Source: an uncultured beta proteobacterium
GTDB taxonomy: Bacteria; Pseudomonadota; Gammaproteobacteria; Burkholderiales; Burkholderiaceae_C
Direction of reading: 5' to 3'
Assembly: GCA_903864505.1 (NCBI GenBank)
Contig: CAIPGC010000106.1
Span: 1-64,000, forward strand
DNA length: 64,000 bases
Both the position numbers and the translations under genes were made by a program. The first letter of the stretch is position 1; each line of letters starts with the position of its first letter. The notes below the pieces were generated by a model that was not told the origin of the DNA, did no database searches, and was given only the letters and a program-made list of their open reading frames with translations. Of this stretch, positions 40,323-62,587 are shown one piece after another.

Positions 40323-41627
<1,305 letters not shown>

Positions 41628-41677: not shown

Positions 41678-43099
41678 ATGGATCAATCGCTCGTTCTTCC
41701 CATGAATCCGCTGCGCAATCGCCTGCTGGGCCTGCTCGATGCTCTTGAAACGGGGCTGGTCGAACGACGGCGGATCGTCCGGCTGTGCCTGCTGGCGGCC
41801 CTGGCCGGCGAACACACGCTGTTGATCGGGCCACCGGGCACTGCCAAGAGCGAACTGGCCCGGCGTCTGCACACGGTGTTTCGCAATGCGCGCTATTTTG
41901 AACGGCTGCTCACCCGGTTCTCGGTGCCAGAGGAACTGTTCGGTCCGCTCTCCATCAAGGCGCTCGAGGAGGACCGCTATGAGCGCCACACGGCCGGCTT
42001 CCTGCCGGATGCCTCGGTCGCCTTCATCGACGAAGTCTTCAAGGCCAACAGCGCCATCCTCAACGCCCTGTTGACGTTGCTCAACGAACGGGAATTCGAC
42101 AACGGCTCCGGTCGCCAGCGCTGTCCCTTGATCAGTGCAATTGGTGCCACCAACGAAGTGCCCGAGGATGCCGTGGCAGAAGCCTTCTTCGACCGGTTTC
42201 TGGTGCGAGTGCCAATGGAGCCCGTCTCTGCCGGGGCTTTCGAGCGCCTGCTCGAGACCGAGCGCGGGGCGTGCTGGGTGCATCCGCTGCCAGAGGTGTG
42301 CCTTGATGGAGCCGACCTCGCTGCAATGAACCAGGCCGCCACCCGGGTCCGCCTGCCCGACGGCGTCAAGGCCCTGCTGGGCCAGCTGCGCAGCCAGTTC
42401 GCTGCCGACCAGACCTATGTCTCTGACCGGCGCTGGGTCAAGATTGTCCACCTGCTGCGCATGGCTGCGGCCAGCGAGGAAAGGCCGGAGGTGCAACTCT
42501 GGGACCTGCTGCTGCTGCCCTGGTGTACTGCTCCCGATGCTAGGCGCCAGGCGGACGTAAGCGACTGGCTCCAGACCCGGCTGGGTGTTCGTGCCGCCTT
42601 TTCGCCGCCGCGCCTGCGCCGTGTCGTCGAGGCCTTCGAGGCGCAGCTCGAGCTTGAGCTCAAGGCCAATGACCTCGACTATGACGAGTCCGGACGGCTG
42701 CGTTTTTCTGCCAGCGACCTGGCGCAGGATATTGGCGATGCCAAGGGCGGGGCCCATGCCGTGCGCATGAGTTACAACCGGCAGCGTCGTTACGGCAAGC
42801 TGCACATCGATGCCCGCACCGGCCAGATCGATCAACTGTTGGCACGCATCGATACGTATGCCGACGAACTGGGCGATCAGTGCCAGAGCCTGGCCACCTA
42901 TTGCGCAAACAGTTTGTGGCTGGGTCACGAGATCACCGGGCAAATTTCGACCAATCTGGCGGCCACGGTCGAAGCCATCATCAACCTGCGTCATCGCACG
43001 GTCAGGGTCAGGGATGGATTTCTGAACCTGCCCAAACTCTCCGTGGATAGCGGCGATATACCGGCACCGGTCGATCACGAACCCCTGAGCGACGCGTGA
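41678..43099 (+). CDS. ravA: MoxR family AAA+ ATPase, RavA-like
   Basis: EHTLLIGPPGTAKSELARRLHTVFRNARYFERLLTRFSVPEELFGPLSIKALEEDRYERHTAGFLPDASVAFIDEVFKANSAILNALLTLLNEREFDNG. Confidence 0.88.
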   Translation: MDQSLVLPMNPLRNRLLGLLDALETGLVERRRIVRLCLLAALAGEHTLLIGPPGTAKSELARRLHTVFRNARYFERLLTRFSVPEELFGPLSIKALEEDRYERHTAGFLPDASVAFIDEVFKANSAILNALLTLLNEREFDNGSGRQRCPLISAIGATNEVPEDAVAEAFFDRFLVRVPMEPVSAGAFERLLETERGACWVHPLPEVCLDGADLAAMNQAATRVRLPDGVKALLGQLRSQFAADQTYVSDRRWVKIVHLLRMAAASEERPEVQLWDLLLLPWCTAPDARRQADVSDWLQTRLGVRAAFSPPRLRRVVEAFEAQLELELKANDLDYDESGRLRFSASDLAQDIGDAKGGAHAVRMSYNRQRRYGKLHIDARTGQIDQLLARIDTYADELGDQCQSLATYCANSLWLGHEITGQISTNLAATVEAIINLRHRTVRVRDGFLNLPKLSVDSGDIPAPVDHEPLSDA

Positions 43100-44676
43100 A
43101 AGCGGAGTCAGCCTGCCCCTTTTTGTTCGAGGCCAAGGAGCAGCGCATTGCCGCCCTTGACGGGCTTTCGCGCAAGCTCTGGCTGGGTGCTGCGACCCAT
43201 ACCCAGGGCGATCTTGAGCCCCGACTGCAGGCGCTCGTGAGCTTGCGCGCAGCGCTCGTTGCGGGACGGCTGCCGCGCGACGCTCTGGCGGGCTGGCCGG
43301 CACCGACTCTGGCCACGGCGCTGGCGGCCACCATGGAGCAGCTCGGTCTGGCCGGTTATTGCGCCGACCAGCTGGAGCTGGCCGATACGGTGCTGCTGAG
43401 CATCCTCTTCCACCTCGATTTCATTGTGGACTACCGTGACCGCGGCGCCAGCGAGGCCCAGGCCATGGGCATGGCCCTTAGTGCGTTCGCCGAAGACTGG
43501 AAGGAGCGTTGTGGCCAGATCGACGAGTTGGTGGAGGTGTTTGGTCTCCTTCCCGAAGACGGCAAGAATACCCGCTGGGACATGATCCGCGGCCTCCTGC
43601 GCAGCGAAGGCTGGCAGGACGTGGTGCGTATTCGCCGGTTGCTCGAACGCCTGCCGGAACTCAGCCGCCTGATCCGCAACCTTGGCCGCGCGCAGCAAAA
43701 CGAAGTCATCGACGAGTTCAGCCACAAAAGCATCCCGATCATGGAACAGGCCATCGCCCAGCGTCCCGACGGTCGGACGGTGCGGGTGCCGGACCTTCCC
43801 GGACAGACGCGGGGTGTCCAGCGCAGCGACCGCTTCGCCCGCATGCTGCCGGCCGAAGCGATGCTGCTTGGCCACCCTACGTTGCGCATGGTCTGGCATG
43901 CCAGGCGGGCCGAACGAACCCTGCTCTGTTACGAAGACGATGACCGCATGCAGGAAATCCGCCTGCACGAGGCACTGGTCTGGCGCCCCAATCCGCAGCC
44001 CGTGCCGGAGCGGCATCTGGAGATGGGGCCGATCATCATTTGTGTCGATACCTCCGGTTCAATGCAAGGCGGTGCCGAGGCGGTGGCCAAGGCCACGGTG
44101 CTGGAGGCCGTGCGCACAGCCCACGCACAGAAACGCGCTTGCCACGTTTTCGCGTTTGGCGGGCCGGACGAGGTCGTCGAGATGGAACTGGCGGTAGATG
44201 CCCAGGGCATCGAACGCCTGATGCGTTTTCTTGGCCAGGCCTTCTGTGGGGGCACTGACATCTGCGGCCCGCTCGAAAAGGCCATCGCCAAGCTCGAAGA
44301 CAAGCGCTGGCAGCTGGCCGACTTGCTGGTAGCTTCCGACGGCGAATTCGGAGCCACCCGGGAAGTGACGGCGCGCCTGGACAGGATCAAGGCCGAATGC
44401 GGCCTGCGCGTGCAGGGTTTCCTGATCGGTGACCGCGAGACCATCGGCCTGCTGGAGGTTTGCGACGACATCTACTGGGTTCGCGACTGGCGCCGCTACG
44501 GCGCTTTCAACGTGGAGTCGCCGCTGCAATCCAAGAGCGTCACCGCTACCTTTTTTCCGGGTGCTCTGCGTTCGTCACAGAGCCGGCAACCGAGCGCTTT
44601 CGCTGATGCTGCCGCGCTGGCGGTGCGCGCCGGGGTGCAGCGCGGCGAAGGCGATGCGGACACGGGCGCAGCATGA
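43096..44676 (+). CDS. viaA: VWA (MIDAS) domain protein, ViaA-like
   Basis: GPIIICVDTSGSMQGGAEAVAKATVLEAVRTAHAQKRACHVFAFGG...GIERLMRFLGQAFCGGTDICGPLEKAI; GTGA overlap with ravA-like gene. Confidence 0.85.
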   Translation: MKAESACPFLFEAKEQRIAALDGLSRKLWLGAATHTQGDLEPRLQALVSLRAALVAGRLPRDALAGWPAPTLATALAATMEQLGLAGYCADQLELADTVLLSILFHLDFIVDYRDRGASEAQAMGMALSAFAEDWKERCGQIDELVEVFGLLPEDGKNTRWDMIRGLLRSEGWQDVVRIRRLLERLPELSRLIRNLGRAQQNEVIDEFSHKSIPIMEQAIAQRPDGRTVRVPDLPGQTRGVQRSDRFARMLPAEAMLLGHPTLRMVWHARRAERTLLCYEDDDRMQEIRLHEALVWRPNPQPVPERHLEMGPIIICVDTSGSMQGGAEAVAKATVLEAVRTAHAQKRACHVFAFGGPDEVVEMELAVDAQGIERLMRFLGQAFCGGTDICGPLEKAIAKLEDKRWQLADLLVASDGEFGATREVTARLDRIKAECGLRVQGFLIGDRETIGLLEVCDDIYWVRDWRRYGAFNVESPLQSKSVTATFFPGALRSSQSRQPSAFADAAALAVRAGVQRGEGDADTGAA

Positions 44677-45506
44677 GTTTTGCCAGCGAATACCTTGCCC
44701 AACTCGAACGCTTTGCTGCGCGCACGCCCGTGCCCCGCATCCGCGCCCTGCACCTGCCGCCGCTGCGCCCGGTTGAACCCAACAAGGGCGAGTTTTGTGC
44801 GATCGAGCTGGAGGACGGCTCGCTCGGCCTGTCCTACGTGCTGCTCGACGATAGCCTGGCACGCCTGCGCGAGCGGGCCGACGGGCTGGGTTTGGCTGGT
44901 GCCGATGCGCGGCTGGTGGCGCGCCGCTACGCCGGTGCCGAAGGCATCGAAAAGACCATTGGTTTTGCCGCTGCCAATGCACTGACGCGCTGCTTCTACG
45001 ACCGCGCCGGTTTCCGGCCGCACGACAGTGGCGACTCGATCGGCCAGCTCCAGCCCGTGCGCGGCGAGCAGATCGGCATGATCGGGCTGTTCATGCCGCT
45101 GCTGGGACGCATTCTGACGGCCGGTGCGCAATTGATCGTGGTCGAGTTGCGCCCCGAACTGGTCGGCCAGCAGGACGGTTATCGGGTTACCCTGGACGCC
45201 GAGGAACTGATGCGGTGCAGCAAGGTGCTCTCGACCAGCACCCTGCTGCTCAACGACAGCCTCGACCGCATGCTGGCCTGCTGCCGGGATGCGCGCTGGT
45301 TCGCGCTGGTCGGCCCGAGCGCGGGCTGCCTGCCCGATGGTTTGTTCGCGCGCGGTGTGACCCTGATCGGTGGCAGCTGGGTCGAAGACCGCGAGCATTT
45401 CATCGCGGCGCTGCGAAGCGGCCAGGCGCGCGGCACGAGCGCGCGCAAATACGCGCTGAGCGCGCAGAGCTACCCCGGCTTTGCCGCGCTGCTGGCAAGA
45501 ATCTAG
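44673..45506 (+). CDS. DUF364/DUF4213 (putative heavy-metal chelation) family protein
   Basis: IGMIGLFMPLLGRILTAGAQLIVVELRPELVGQQDGYRVTLDAEELMRCSKVLSTSTLLLNDSLDRMLACCRDARWFALVGPSAGCLPDGLFARGVTLIGGSWVED; ATGA overlap with viaA-like gene. Confidence 0.72.
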   Translation: MSFASEYLAQLERFAARTPVPRIRALHLPPLRPVEPNKGEFCAIELEDGSLGLSYVLLDDSLARLRERADGLGLAGADARLVARRYAGAEGIEKTIGFAAANALTRCFYDRAGFRPHDSGDSIGQLQPVRGEQIGMIGLFMPLLGRILTAGAQLIVVELRPELVGQQDGYRVTLDAEELMRCSKVLSTSTLLLNDSLDRMLACCRDARWFALVGPSAGCLPDGLFARGVTLIGGSWVEDREHFIAALRSGQARGTSARKYALSAQSYPGFAALLARI

Positions 45507-45874
45507 TCGAAGACGCGGATGTGCCGGAAATGTGCCGGCGCGTGCGAGACCACCGACGAACCCAGGATCAGCCCCCAGAACAGGGCGATGGCGGCCCCGG
45601 GAAGTGCCAGCAGGGCACCGACCAGCAGCAGCTTGACCAGGATGAAGACGCCGGCGAGTTCGCCAAGGTGCTTCGGGTTGCACCACACATCGAGCCCGTA
45701 CATGGCCAGCCCGGTTGCAAGCACCAGGCCGCAGGCCACTTTCTGTTCACCGCTGGTCAGCAGGGCCGCGCCGAGCATCACCACGCCGACAAGATGCACG
45801 CAGCGCAAACCGATGCTCAGCCAGCGCCGGCCCCGGAAGTCGCGTTTGCCTAGCTTCTTCGGCGCAGTCGGCAT
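45503..45874 (-). CDS. Small multi-TM hypothetical membrane protein
   Basis: RGRRWLSIGLRCVHLVGVVMLGAALLTSGEQKVACGLVLATGLAMYGLDVWCNPKHLGELAGVFILVKLLLVGALLALPGAAIALFWGLILGSSVVSHAP. Confidence 0.75.
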   Translation of the reverse strand: MPTAPKKLGKRDFRGRRWLSIGLRCVHLVGVVMLGAALLTSGEQKVACGLVLATGLAMYGLDVWCNPKHLGELAGVFILVKLLLVGALLALPGAAIALFWGLILGSSVVSHAPAHFRHIRVFD

Positions 45875-45880
45875 AGCGGT

Positions 45881-46933
45881 TCAGGCGCGTTCGAGCAGCA
45901 TGGCGTCGCCATAGCTGAAGAAGCGGTACTCCTGTTCGATGGCGCGGCGGTACAGTTTCATTACATGGTCGTAGCCTGCGAAGGCACTCACCAGCATCAT
46001 CAGACTCGATTTTGGAAGATGAAAGTTGGTGACGAGCAGATCGACCAACTGAAACTGAAAACCCGGAGTGATGAAGATGGCGGTGTCGCCACAGACGCCC
46101 ATACCCTTGGCCCAGCTCTCCAGCGTGCGTACGGTGGTGGTGCCCACCGCCACGATGCGTCCGCCGCGCGCCTTGCAGTCGGCAATCGCCTGCAATGTTT
46201 CTGCGGGCACGTTGTACCACTCACTGTGCATTTGGTGCTCGGACAGGTTCTCCACCTTGACCGGCTGAAAGGTTCCTGCGCCCACATGCAGTGTCACATG
46301 CGCGCGCCGGACTCCCAACGCATCGAACTGAGCCAGCAGTGTTTCGTCAAAGTGCAGCGCCGCTGTCGGGGCAGCCACCGCGCCAGGGTGCTTGGCAAAT
46401 ACGGTCTGGTAGCGTTGCGCATCCTCGGGTGAATCGGTATGCGTGATGTACGGCGGCAGCGGCACATGACCGTGTCGTTCCATCAGCGTATAGGGGTCGT
46501 CGCCCGCATCGTTGCTCAGCACAAAGCGAAACAAGGCGCCGTCCGCTGCGGGCCAGCGACCCAGCAGCGTAGCGCTCAGACCGTCGGATTGCCCAGGGGC
46601 ACAGACCAGTTTCAGCGTGGCCCCTACCTCGGGCTTTTTGCTGACGCGCATGTGGGCAGCGACCTGGTTGCCACCCAGCACGCGCTCGATTAGCAGTTCC
46701 ACCTTGCCGCCGGTGGCTTTTTCGCCAAACAGCCGCGCATGGAGAACCTTGGTATCGTTGAATACCAGCAAGTCGCCCTGCATCAGTAACGATGGCAGGT
46801 CGCGAAAAGTGCGGTCTGCTGCGAGCGCACCCGTTCCATCGAGCAGCCGCGAGCCGCTGCGCTCTGGCGCGGGATGCTGTGCAATCAGATGCTCGGGAAG
46901 TGCGAAGTCAAAGTCGCTGAGTGTGAAGGTGTG
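45881..46933 (-). CDS. queA: S-adenosylmethionine:tRNA ribosyltransferase-isomerase
   Basis: VHTFTLSDFDFALPEHLIAQHPAPERSGSRLL, LVFNDTKVLHARLFGEKATGGKVELLIERVL, AAPTAALHFDETLLAQFDALGVRRAHVTLHVGAGTFQPVK. Confidence 0.96.
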   Translation of the reverse strand, partial: HTFTLSDFDFALPEHLIAQHPAPERSGSRLLDGTGALAADRTFRDLPSLLMQGDLLVFNDTKVLHARLFGEKATGGKVELLIERVLGGNQVAAHMRVSKKPEVGATLKLVCAPGQSDGLSATLLGRWPAADGALFRFVLSNDAGDDPYTLMERHGHVPLPPYITHTDSPEDAQRYQTVFAKHPGAVAAPTAALHFDETLLAQFDALGVRRAHVTLHVGAGTFQPVKVENLSEHQMHSEWYNVPAETLQAIADCKARGGRIVAVGTTTVRTLESWAKGMGVCGDTAIFITPGFQFQLVDLLVTNFHLPKSSLMMLVSAFAGYDHVMKLYRRAIEQEYRFFSYGDAMLLERA

Positions 46934-46978
46934 CACAGGCGGGCAGTTTAGCAATGAAACCCAAGGCACAATCCGTCC

Positions 46979-60891: not shown

Positions 60892-62177
60892 ACCAGCTCC
60901 AGCTTTTCCTGCCCTGCGCTGCCGGTGTGGAGGACTATCTTGCACACGAAGTCCATGGCCTGACCGGCTTGATGGGGGAAGACCTGCTGACGCGCCGCGG
61001 CGGGGTCATGGTGCGGGCCGCGTGGCGCGATGCCATGCGTCTGAACCTGTACAGCCGTCTTGCCCAGCGCGTGCTGGTGCAACTCTCCTACACCGACTAC
61101 CGCACCGAGCAGGACCTGTACCGCGGCGCCGCTGCCGTGGCGTGGGAGATCTGGTTTACGCCCAGACAGAGCATCAAGGTCGAGGTGACAGCGCAGCACA
61201 GCCCCCTGAACAGCCTGAACTTTGCCGCGCTCAAGATCAAGGACGCGGTGTGTGATCGCTTTCGTGACAAGGCCCACGGCGTGCGCCCCGATGTCAACAC
61301 CCAGTGGCCCGATGTGCGCATCTACGCCCACCTCACCACCGACACCTGCTCGCTGTACATCGACACCTCGGGCGAGCCCTTGTTCAAGCGCGGCTGGCGT
61401 GAGGACAAGGGGGAGGCGCCGTTGAAGGAGACGCTCGCGGCTGCCATGCTCGCCGCCAGTGGCTGGGCCGATGGTGAAGACGATTTGCTGCCTCTGTACG
61501 ACCCCTGCTGCGGCAGTGGCACCATCGCCATCGAGGCAGCCCAGATGGCCTGCAATATCCCCGCAGGCATGCTGCGCCGCTTTGCTTTCGAGAAATACCT
61601 GCCGTTCCAGGAGCATGTCTGGAGTGCTATCAAAAAAGAAGCTGCTGACGCACAGGTGGTGCGCCCTGCAGGCCAATCTCCCTTGGTATTTGGGAGCGAC
61701 GTGGCGCACCGCATGGTCGATTTTGCCCAGCGCAACGCCCATCGCGCGGGGGTGGCCGACGTGGTCGAGTTCCGCGGTGGCGACGCGTTGCAGCGTATGC
61801 CCCCCAGCGCCGTGCCGGGAGTGATGCTGCTCAATCCGCCCTATGGTGAGCGCATTGGCGTGGGCGGCATCAGCGCCAGCGCAGCGCGGCGCTCGGGTGC
61901 ACCGCCGCGCGGCGACGCGCTGCCCGATTTCGAAGGCCACAGCGGTGCCCGTGAGCAGGCGGTTACCGAGGACGGTGGTGAGTTCTTCAGCCAGCTCGCT
62001 TCGCACTGGAAGAAAAATTACGCGGGCTGGACCGGCTGGATTCTCACGCCCGACCTGAAGCTGCCCGGCAAGATGCGCCTGAAGGAGTCGCGCCGTGTCC
62101 CCTTGTGGAACGGCCCCATCGAATGCCGTCTGTTCAGGTTCGATATGGTCCAGGGCACCGCACGCGAGCGAAAGTGA
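60888..62177 (+). CDS. THUMP-domain class I SAM-dependent RNA methyltransferase (RlmL/YpsC-like)
   Basis: FLPCAAGVEDYLAHEVHGL, QHSPLNSLNFAALKIKDAVCDRFRDKAHGVRPDV, YDPCCGSGTIAIEAAQMACNIPAG, LLNPPYGERIG; GTG start. Confidence 0.93.
   Translation: MNQLQLFLPCAAGVEDYLAHEVHGLTGLMGEDLLTRRGGVMVRAAWRDAMRLNLYSRLAQRVLVQLSYTDYRTEQDLYRGAAAVAWEIWFTPRQSIKVEVTAQHSPLNSLNFAALKIKDAVCDRFRDKAHGVRPDVNTQWPDVRIYAHLTTDTCSLYIDTSGEPLFKRGWREDKGEAPLKETLAAAMLAASGWADGEDDLLPLYDPCCGSGTIAIEAAQMACNIPAGMLRRFAFEKYLPFQEHVWSAIKKEAADAQVVRPAGQSPLVFGSDVAHRMVDFAQRNAHRAGVADVVEFRGGDALQRMPPSAVPGVMLLNPPYGERIGVGGISASAARRSGAPPRGDALPDFEGHSGAREQAVTEDGGEFFSQLASHWKKNYAGWTGWILTPDLKLPGKMRLKESRRVPLWNGPIECRLFRFDMVQGTARERK
61626..61673 (+). repeat. 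Dispersed GCT-N11-AGC element, in frame in the RNA methyltransferase gene
   Basis: gctatcaaaaaagaagctgctgacgcacaggtggtgcgccctgcaggcc. Confidence 0.55.
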
Positions 62178-62587
62178 ACATCGTTCTTGACACCAACATT
62201 GTTCTGGACCTCTACGTTTTCAGTGACCCGGCGGCGGCCCCCCTGTTTGAAGCGCTGAAAGCAGGCCGGCTGCGTTGGCTGGCCACAGCACCCATGCGCG
62301 ACGAACTGATGCGGGTTTTGACCTACCCGCAGATCGTCAAAAGCCTTCTCCACCACCGCCGGGGTCCCGCACCGGTACTGGCACAGTTTGATGCAGCTGC
62401 CACGATTTTTGCGCCCGCCCCCAAAGCCGGCGTCACCTGCAAAGACCCCGACGACCAGAAGTTCATCGACCTGGCAGTTGCGCAGCGGGCGATGCTGCTG
62501 AGCAAGGACCGGGCGGTGTTGTGCATGCGCAAGCGTTTGCTGACCCTTGGGGTGCCAGTGCACACAGGGTTCGGGGCACAAACATAG
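62174..62587 (+). CDS. PIN domain protein (putative toxin-like endoribonuclease)
   Basis: VNIVLDTNIVLDLYVFSDPAAAPLFEALKAG...MRDELMRVLTYPQI...CKDPDDQKFIDLAVAQRAMLLSKDRAVL; GTG start overlapping the upstream stop. Confidence 0.85.
   Translation: MNIVLDTNIVLDLYVFSDPAAAPLFEALKAGRLRWLATAPMRDELMRVLTYPQIVKSLLHHRRGPAPVLAQFDAAATIFAPAPKAGVTCKDPDDQKFIDLAVAQRAMLLSKDRAVLCMRKRLLTLGVPVHTGFGAQT

Follow-up and report, generated by a model that had tools for sequence, protein, structure and literature searches.

A RavA-ViaA-DUF364 gene cassette of Betaproteobacteria associated with tungsten-type aldehyde oxidoreductases

Paired MoxR-type AAA+ and VWA-domain proteins such as NorQ/NorD and CbbQ/CbbO serve a dedicated enzyme by metal insertion or activation; NorQ/NorD insert FeB, and activases have also been described among these pairs (PMC9976466). 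Similarly, the AAA+ protein CoxD and the VWA protein CoxE mature the molybdenum site of carbon monoxide dehydrogenase (CODH), a molybdenum-pterin enzyme (PMC4240915), and in Escherichia coli, RavA and ViaA have fumarate reductase and complex I as targets (PMC10585395, PMC3893208). Most MoxR/VWA pairs have no known client. In Aromatoleum aromaticum, aorABC encode a tungsten-type aldehyde oxidoreductase (AOR), and aorD and aorE encode MoaD-like proteins (PMC6365974). Papers on AOR name only the products of aorD and aorE as putative maturation factors, describing no dedicated maturation chaperone beyond them and mentioning no AAA+, VWA or DUF364 protein (PMC6365974, PMC10413684). The DUF364 family, in turn, is represented by two structures and no function. 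Herein, a 64,000-nucleotide stretch of DNA from an uncultured beta proteobacterium (contig CAIPGC010000106.1, positions 1 to 64,000; the window) was found to carry a RavA-like, a ViaA-like and a DUF364 gene in direct succession (the trio). Co-occurrence joins the three gaps, namely a dedicated maturation chaperone for AOR, the function of DUF364 and the clients of MoxR/VWA pairs: the trio probably helps AOR to be made or kept active, since it is found almost constantly together with AOR and sometimes lies inside the aor operon.

When a database was scanned with the ViaA-like protein, 49 loci were returned, mostly from Rhodocyclales, and all locus counts given here are based on them. RavA lies upstream of ViaA in 48 of them, the remaining locus being truncated within ViaA by the start of its contig, and the order RavA-ViaA-DUF364, with DUF364 directly downstream of ViaA, is repeated in 43, far beyond chance. 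Among the six loci without adjacent DUF364, L090 ends inside ViaA, and for L081 and L085 a DUF364 gene was located at some distance from the ViaA locus, about 9 and 32 kb, respectively, with the contigs paired by their length. In addition, across 200 genomes of one family, DUF364 accompanied ViaA in 43/46 genomes, compared with 16/154 ViaA-negative ones (p=1e-26). The three genes move together in Rhodocyclales and in other, related Betaproteobacteria.

The connection to AOR is partly physical. Genes for an iron-sulphur subunit, AOR, a flavin adenine dinucleotide (FAD) subunit and a MoaD-like protein are followed directly by the trio in L045, L047 and L092; the same arrangement is found in L046, where the contig edge cuts into the AOR gene, and the trio faces the aor operon in L067, L074 and G697. 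In G481 (L173, G481:C386, 242-8127), aorB-aorC-aorD-ravA-viaA run in one direction, with another AorC-like gene behind them and no DUF364 adjacent; this is a variant of the system within the aor operon itself. Altogether, eight genomes carry the trio, or ravA-viaA alone, in or near an aor operon, and the aor genes at these loci correspond to aorA-D of A. aromaticum.

Because aor genes were found beside the trio, the AOR family PF01314 was searched across genomes and was detected in 45 of the 48 that carry a ViaA-like locus; of the three PF01314-negative genomes, L090 and L091 also lack DUF364 beside ViaA, L090 being cut off within ViaA. In the family sample, AOR was present in 44/46 ViaA-positive genomes and 46/154 others (p=1.3e-16), and in 52/59 genomes with DUF364 and 38/141 without (p=5e-16). 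The ViaA association was also seen after collapsing to genera (21/22 versus 18/46, p=5e-6) and in an order-wide sample of 300 (9/10 versus 23/290, p=5e-9), all of these p-values serving as guides only, since the genomes are related by descent, species are not independent and independence is overstated. NarG, another molybdenum enzyme of anaerobic respiration, was used as a control for an anaerobic or molybdenum lifestyle and showed no link to ViaA (17/45 versus 39/154, p=0.13), which weakens anaerobic lifestyle as the sole cause of the AOR link.

This control also bears on the possibility that the trio acts on respiratory complexes as a chaperone of the RavA-ViaA type, that DUF364 only accompanies the pair and that the AOR link arises from a shared anaerobic, aromatic-degrading lifestyle. 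Such a role would agree with the homology to RavA and ViaA, with the respiratory targets of the E. coli homologues and with the occurrence of more divergent RavA-ViaA pairs that lack adjacent DUF364. It is distinctly unlikely, however, given the NarG result, the physical linkage to aor genes, the fixed position of DUF364 and the poor fit of the pair to the RavA and ViaA equivalog models described below.

A functional link of the trio to AOR or to related tungsten or molybdenum enzymes is considered highly probable. The AOR link is well supported, and insertion and reactivation are both compatible with it. The reading that we favour, with a probability of roughly 0.5, is that the trio is a laterally moving machine for AOR maturation or activation, resembling CoxD/CoxE or NorQ/NorD and extended by DUF364 as a third part. 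The earlier note on this DNA had suggested a three-component machine for metal insertion or metalloenzyme activation; the metalloenzyme link holds, with AOR now named as candidate client, and metal insertion is the part that we infer. As main client we propose the bis-pterin enzymes of the AOR superfamily, which contain tungsten (or molybdenum), and among them most likely the NADH-linked AorABC. The Walker A, Walker B and metal-ion-dependent adhesion site (MIDAS) motifs are intact and conserved, so that the two proteins are expected to work as an ATP-driven ring and its VWA adaptor, in the manner of NorQ/NorD and CoxD/CoxE. In such a scheme, the RavA-like protein would form the ring, the ViaA-like protein would act as client adaptor on apo- or inactive AOR, and DUF364, which has an enolase-N/Rossmann pocket and cysteines specific to its clade, would bind the pterin-metal cofactor or the metal, alter it or pass it on. 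We infer the formation of a complex, its contact with the client, the insertion of the cofactor and the part played by DUF364, and the odds of cofactor insertion or loading being the mechanism are judged about even. More specifically, the trio may be an ATP-driven loader dedicated to AORs, into which it would bring tungstopterin cofactor or tungsten, with DUF364 carrying or modifying the cofactor; this proposal is tentative and falls somewhat short of even odds.

Several observations weigh against a maturation or activation role, in addition to the relatedness of the genomes. The trio is missing from 15 of the 17 AOR-bearing species in the window's genus, and ViaA from 46 AOR genomes of the family sample, in which two ViaA-positive genomes have no detectable AOR. 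Among the genomes with a ViaA-like locus, three have no detected AOR, and in some with the trio the only AOR relatives are BamB-like. There are also DUF364 relatives that stand alone, and at the majority of loci, as in the window, aor genes do not adjoin the trio. In the window genome, AOR lies on another contig (G000:C44:914-2104), with aorA, aorB and aorC side by side on contig 44. A strict requirement of AOR for the trio is ruled out by the 15 species that have the enzyme alone; the trio is not obligatory for AOR.

This dispensability would suit a conditional helper, such as a CbbQ/CbbO-like chaperone that repairs, reactivates or remodels inhibited or oxygen-damaged AOR without inserting a cofactor. 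The same co-occurrence data apply to such a chaperone, and the activases known among MoxR/VWA pairs provide a precedent (PMC9976466); the pterin/metal pocket proposed for DUF364 and the tungstate/molybdate contexts of this family point to cofactor handling instead, which leaves pure repair somewhat unlikely.

Two further arrangements near aor genes were observed by eye. Downstream of the trio in L045, L046 and L092, a MobA-like gene, two small proteins and a SelB-like elongation factor recur, a block that suggests a nearby selenium/molybdenum enzyme region. Furthermore, CoxD/CoxE-like AAA+/VWA pairs lie just upstream of the aor operon in L185 (G586:C138, 3329-5378) and L186 (G659:C89, 2403-4541), and are perhaps an alternative MoxR/VWA helper for AOR.

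The third protein of the trio exceeded the Pfam cut-offs for DUF364 (93.5 bits, cut-off 23) and DUF4213 (26.9 bits, cut-off 23.5). Its AlphaFold model (model confidence, pLDDT, 89.7) retrieved 3npg (PH1506) and 3l5o (Dhaf4260) as first-ranking structures, with E of about 1e-13, so that the DUF364 fold is genuine and the objection from a missing fold, which the earlier note had allowed for, falls away. The two-domain fold and the main pocket residues are common to all three proteins, with only about 18-20% identity to the window protein in the structure alignment. In the interdomain pocket of 3l5o, Gly129, Glu148 and Thr174 correspond to G138, E158 and T188 or T190 of the window protein, all retained across the trio-associated clade, and Asp180 and Thr182 correspond to Asn194 and Ser196. 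Unlike 3l5o and 3npg, the window protein is encoded in an AAA+/VWA operon and carries extra invariant cysteines: Cys42, Cys182, Cys204 and Cys219 are invariant in the trio-associated clade. Cys182 is present in all DUF364 homologues inspected; in remoter ones, Cys42 is mostly and Cys219 often absent.

In the paper on the first DUF364 structure, the ligand was proposed to be pterin- or flavin-like, and neighbouring genes for tungstate and molybdate transporters were noted (PMC2954201). Among the database genomes, stand-alone DUF364 relatives were seen by eye near a tungstate-binding-protein-like gene (L221, G857:C1, 3976-8338) and near an FdhD-like gene (L223, G873:C316, 2738-4906), contexts pointing to tungsten or molybdenum enzymes. 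DUF364 might accordingly make or hold a pterin-like metal chelator that serves tungstate/molybdate homeostasis; the AAA+/VWA pair would be its regulator, and AOR would be affected only indirectly, through its metal supply. The family's name, which refers to putative heavy-metal chelation, the transporter contexts and the tungstate-binding-protein-like neighbour all lend something to this idea. Even so, no transporter lies beside the trio in the window or recurs as a neighbour in the loci, the genomic linkage is to an enzyme operon instead, and molybdenum supply would predict the NarG link that was not seen; a homeostasis role is thus more improbable than that of a respiratory chaperone.

As for the AAA+/VWA pair, the AAA+ protein matched Pfam bpMoxR with 204 bits, and E. 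coli RavA was both its best solved relative and its top structural match. The homology covers the AAA+ core from residue 12 to about residue 330, where the detectable sequence and profile match ends, a position in RavA that we take to be near the start of the LARA domain, which binds the lysine decarboxylase LdcI. The structure model is weak in the AAA+ core and in the C-terminal region, and a diverged LARA domain is compatible with it. The VWA protein exceeded the Pfam cut-offs for VWA_2 and VWA_CoxE (37.1 bits for the latter, cut-off 26.4), has ViaA profile matches and a C-terminal VWA domain with an intact MIDAS, and its gene adjoins the RavA-like gene, as in E. coli. The designation as a RavA/ViaA-like pair in the earlier note is borne out by the profile matches, the RavA homology and the gene adjacency. 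The bit scores, however, are far below the NCBIfam equivalog cut-offs, at 257.6 of 681 for RavA (NF010054) and 163.9 of 500 for ViaA (NF008230), and by these cut-offs the pair is not an orthologue of E. coli RavA-ViaA; the DUF364 gene and the AOR association set it further apart. Although CoxD/CoxE are likewise an AAA+/VWA pair and the VWA_CoxE model is passed, the window pair is closest to RavA/ViaA in sequence and structure. DUF364 takes the place of the XdhC-like CoxF, which distinguishes the system from CoxDEF, and the proposed client is the AOR family instead of CODH. NorQ/NorD and CbbQ/CbbO, by their descriptions, belong to another MoxR clade, have other clients and lack a DUF364 partner. 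The operon type known as aorABCDE in A. aromaticum is the one linked to the trio in several genomes.

Literature searches found no paper joining MoxR with DUF364, and for MoxR, tungsten and aldehyde only a materials paper and a molybdoenzyme-chaperone review, in a search that left subscription papers mostly outside, so that novelty is unproven. No earlier report of an AOR-associated RavA-ViaA-DUF364 cassette was found, and the AOR link appears to be new. If the trio is indeed a cofactor loader, it would provide the first function for DUF364 and a dedicated maturation chaperone for the AOR family. The trio genes might also aid the production of tungsten enzymes in further hosts. Aromatoleum evansii, which has served as expression host for recombinant AOR (PMC10413684), itself has the trio in its genome (L053) and thus lends itself to a direct test of the proposal.

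Within the window's genus, sampled as 37 genomes (one per species), the ViaA-like and DUF364 genes are confined to two species, each of which has both: the window genome (G000) and G006. In the ViaA tree, the proteins of these two fall into different, well-supported clades, so two separate acquisitions are likely and vertical inheritance within the genus is unlikely.

In the window, the cassette lies between tgt and queA (Table 1). As described in the earlier note, four packed open reading frames (ORFs) separate the two genes, three on the plus strand followed by a membrane-protein ORF on the minus strand. According to the ORF coordinates, stop and start codons overlap by 4 bp at the AAA+/VWA and VWA/DUF364 junctions, the stop codons of the DUF364 gene and the membrane ORF share one CTAG, and 6 bp separate the membrane ORF from queA. 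In E. coli K-12, queA and tgt are 55 bp apart, so that the separation is real relative to that arrangement and, judged against E. coli, the cassette breaks up a common gene order in this genome. The placement is not a feature of the system: none of the 49 loci has a tgt/queA neighbourhood, which makes the site peculiar to this genome and rules out a conserved insertion site. Inspection of the cassette edges revealed no obvious mobile-element repeats, and the GC content is raised only slightly. The queA gene on a Comamonas plasmid stands alone and is therefore uninformative on the empty site. A defence-system identity was dropped, the PADLOC search giving no meaningful match (best 17 bits). Elsewhere in the window, a gene for a small PIN-domain-like protein was noted by eye at 62174-62587, no evident antitoxin gene being called next to it.

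Table 1. Coordinates of the cassette, its motifs and the flanking genes in the window
Feature	Position	Strand	Basis and remarks
tgt	40323-41624 as listed, or 40323-41534 from the better-supported start	-	Pfam/NCBIfam TGT match
RavA-like MoxR AAA+ ATPase, 473 aa	41678-43099 (alternative start 41702)	+	ORF and profile matches; no sequence match to E. coli RavA detected beyond about residue 330
Walker A GPPGTAKS, residues 51-58	41828-41851	+	Invariant in 44 homologues
Walker B FIDE, residues 116-119	42023-42034	+	Invariant in 44 homologues
ViaA-like VWA protein, 526 aa, GTG start	43096-44676	+	ORF and profile matches
MIDAS DTSGS, residues 318-322	44047-44061	+	Homologue alignment; T387 also invariant, D415 nearly so
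DUF4213/DUF364 protein, 277 aa, enolase-N and Rossmann-like fold	44673-45506	+	ORF, Pfam, AlphaFold
Small membrane protein, 123 aa	45503-45874	-	Convergent with the DUF364 gene
queA	45881-46969	-	Pfam/NCBIfam Queuosine_synth match

The small membrane protein has CopD as its only family match, below threshold. The earlier note had expected all four genes of the cassette to recur together, which proved correct for the trio and failed for the membrane gene, found directly after DUF364 in just 4 of the 49 loci (L045, L046, L048 and L092) plus G794. A conserved four-gene unit is thereby ruled out, and the membrane gene is an optional cassette partner. In G056 and G697, its relatives lie immediately upstream of aorA, an independent hint that the membrane gene belongs to AOR biology.

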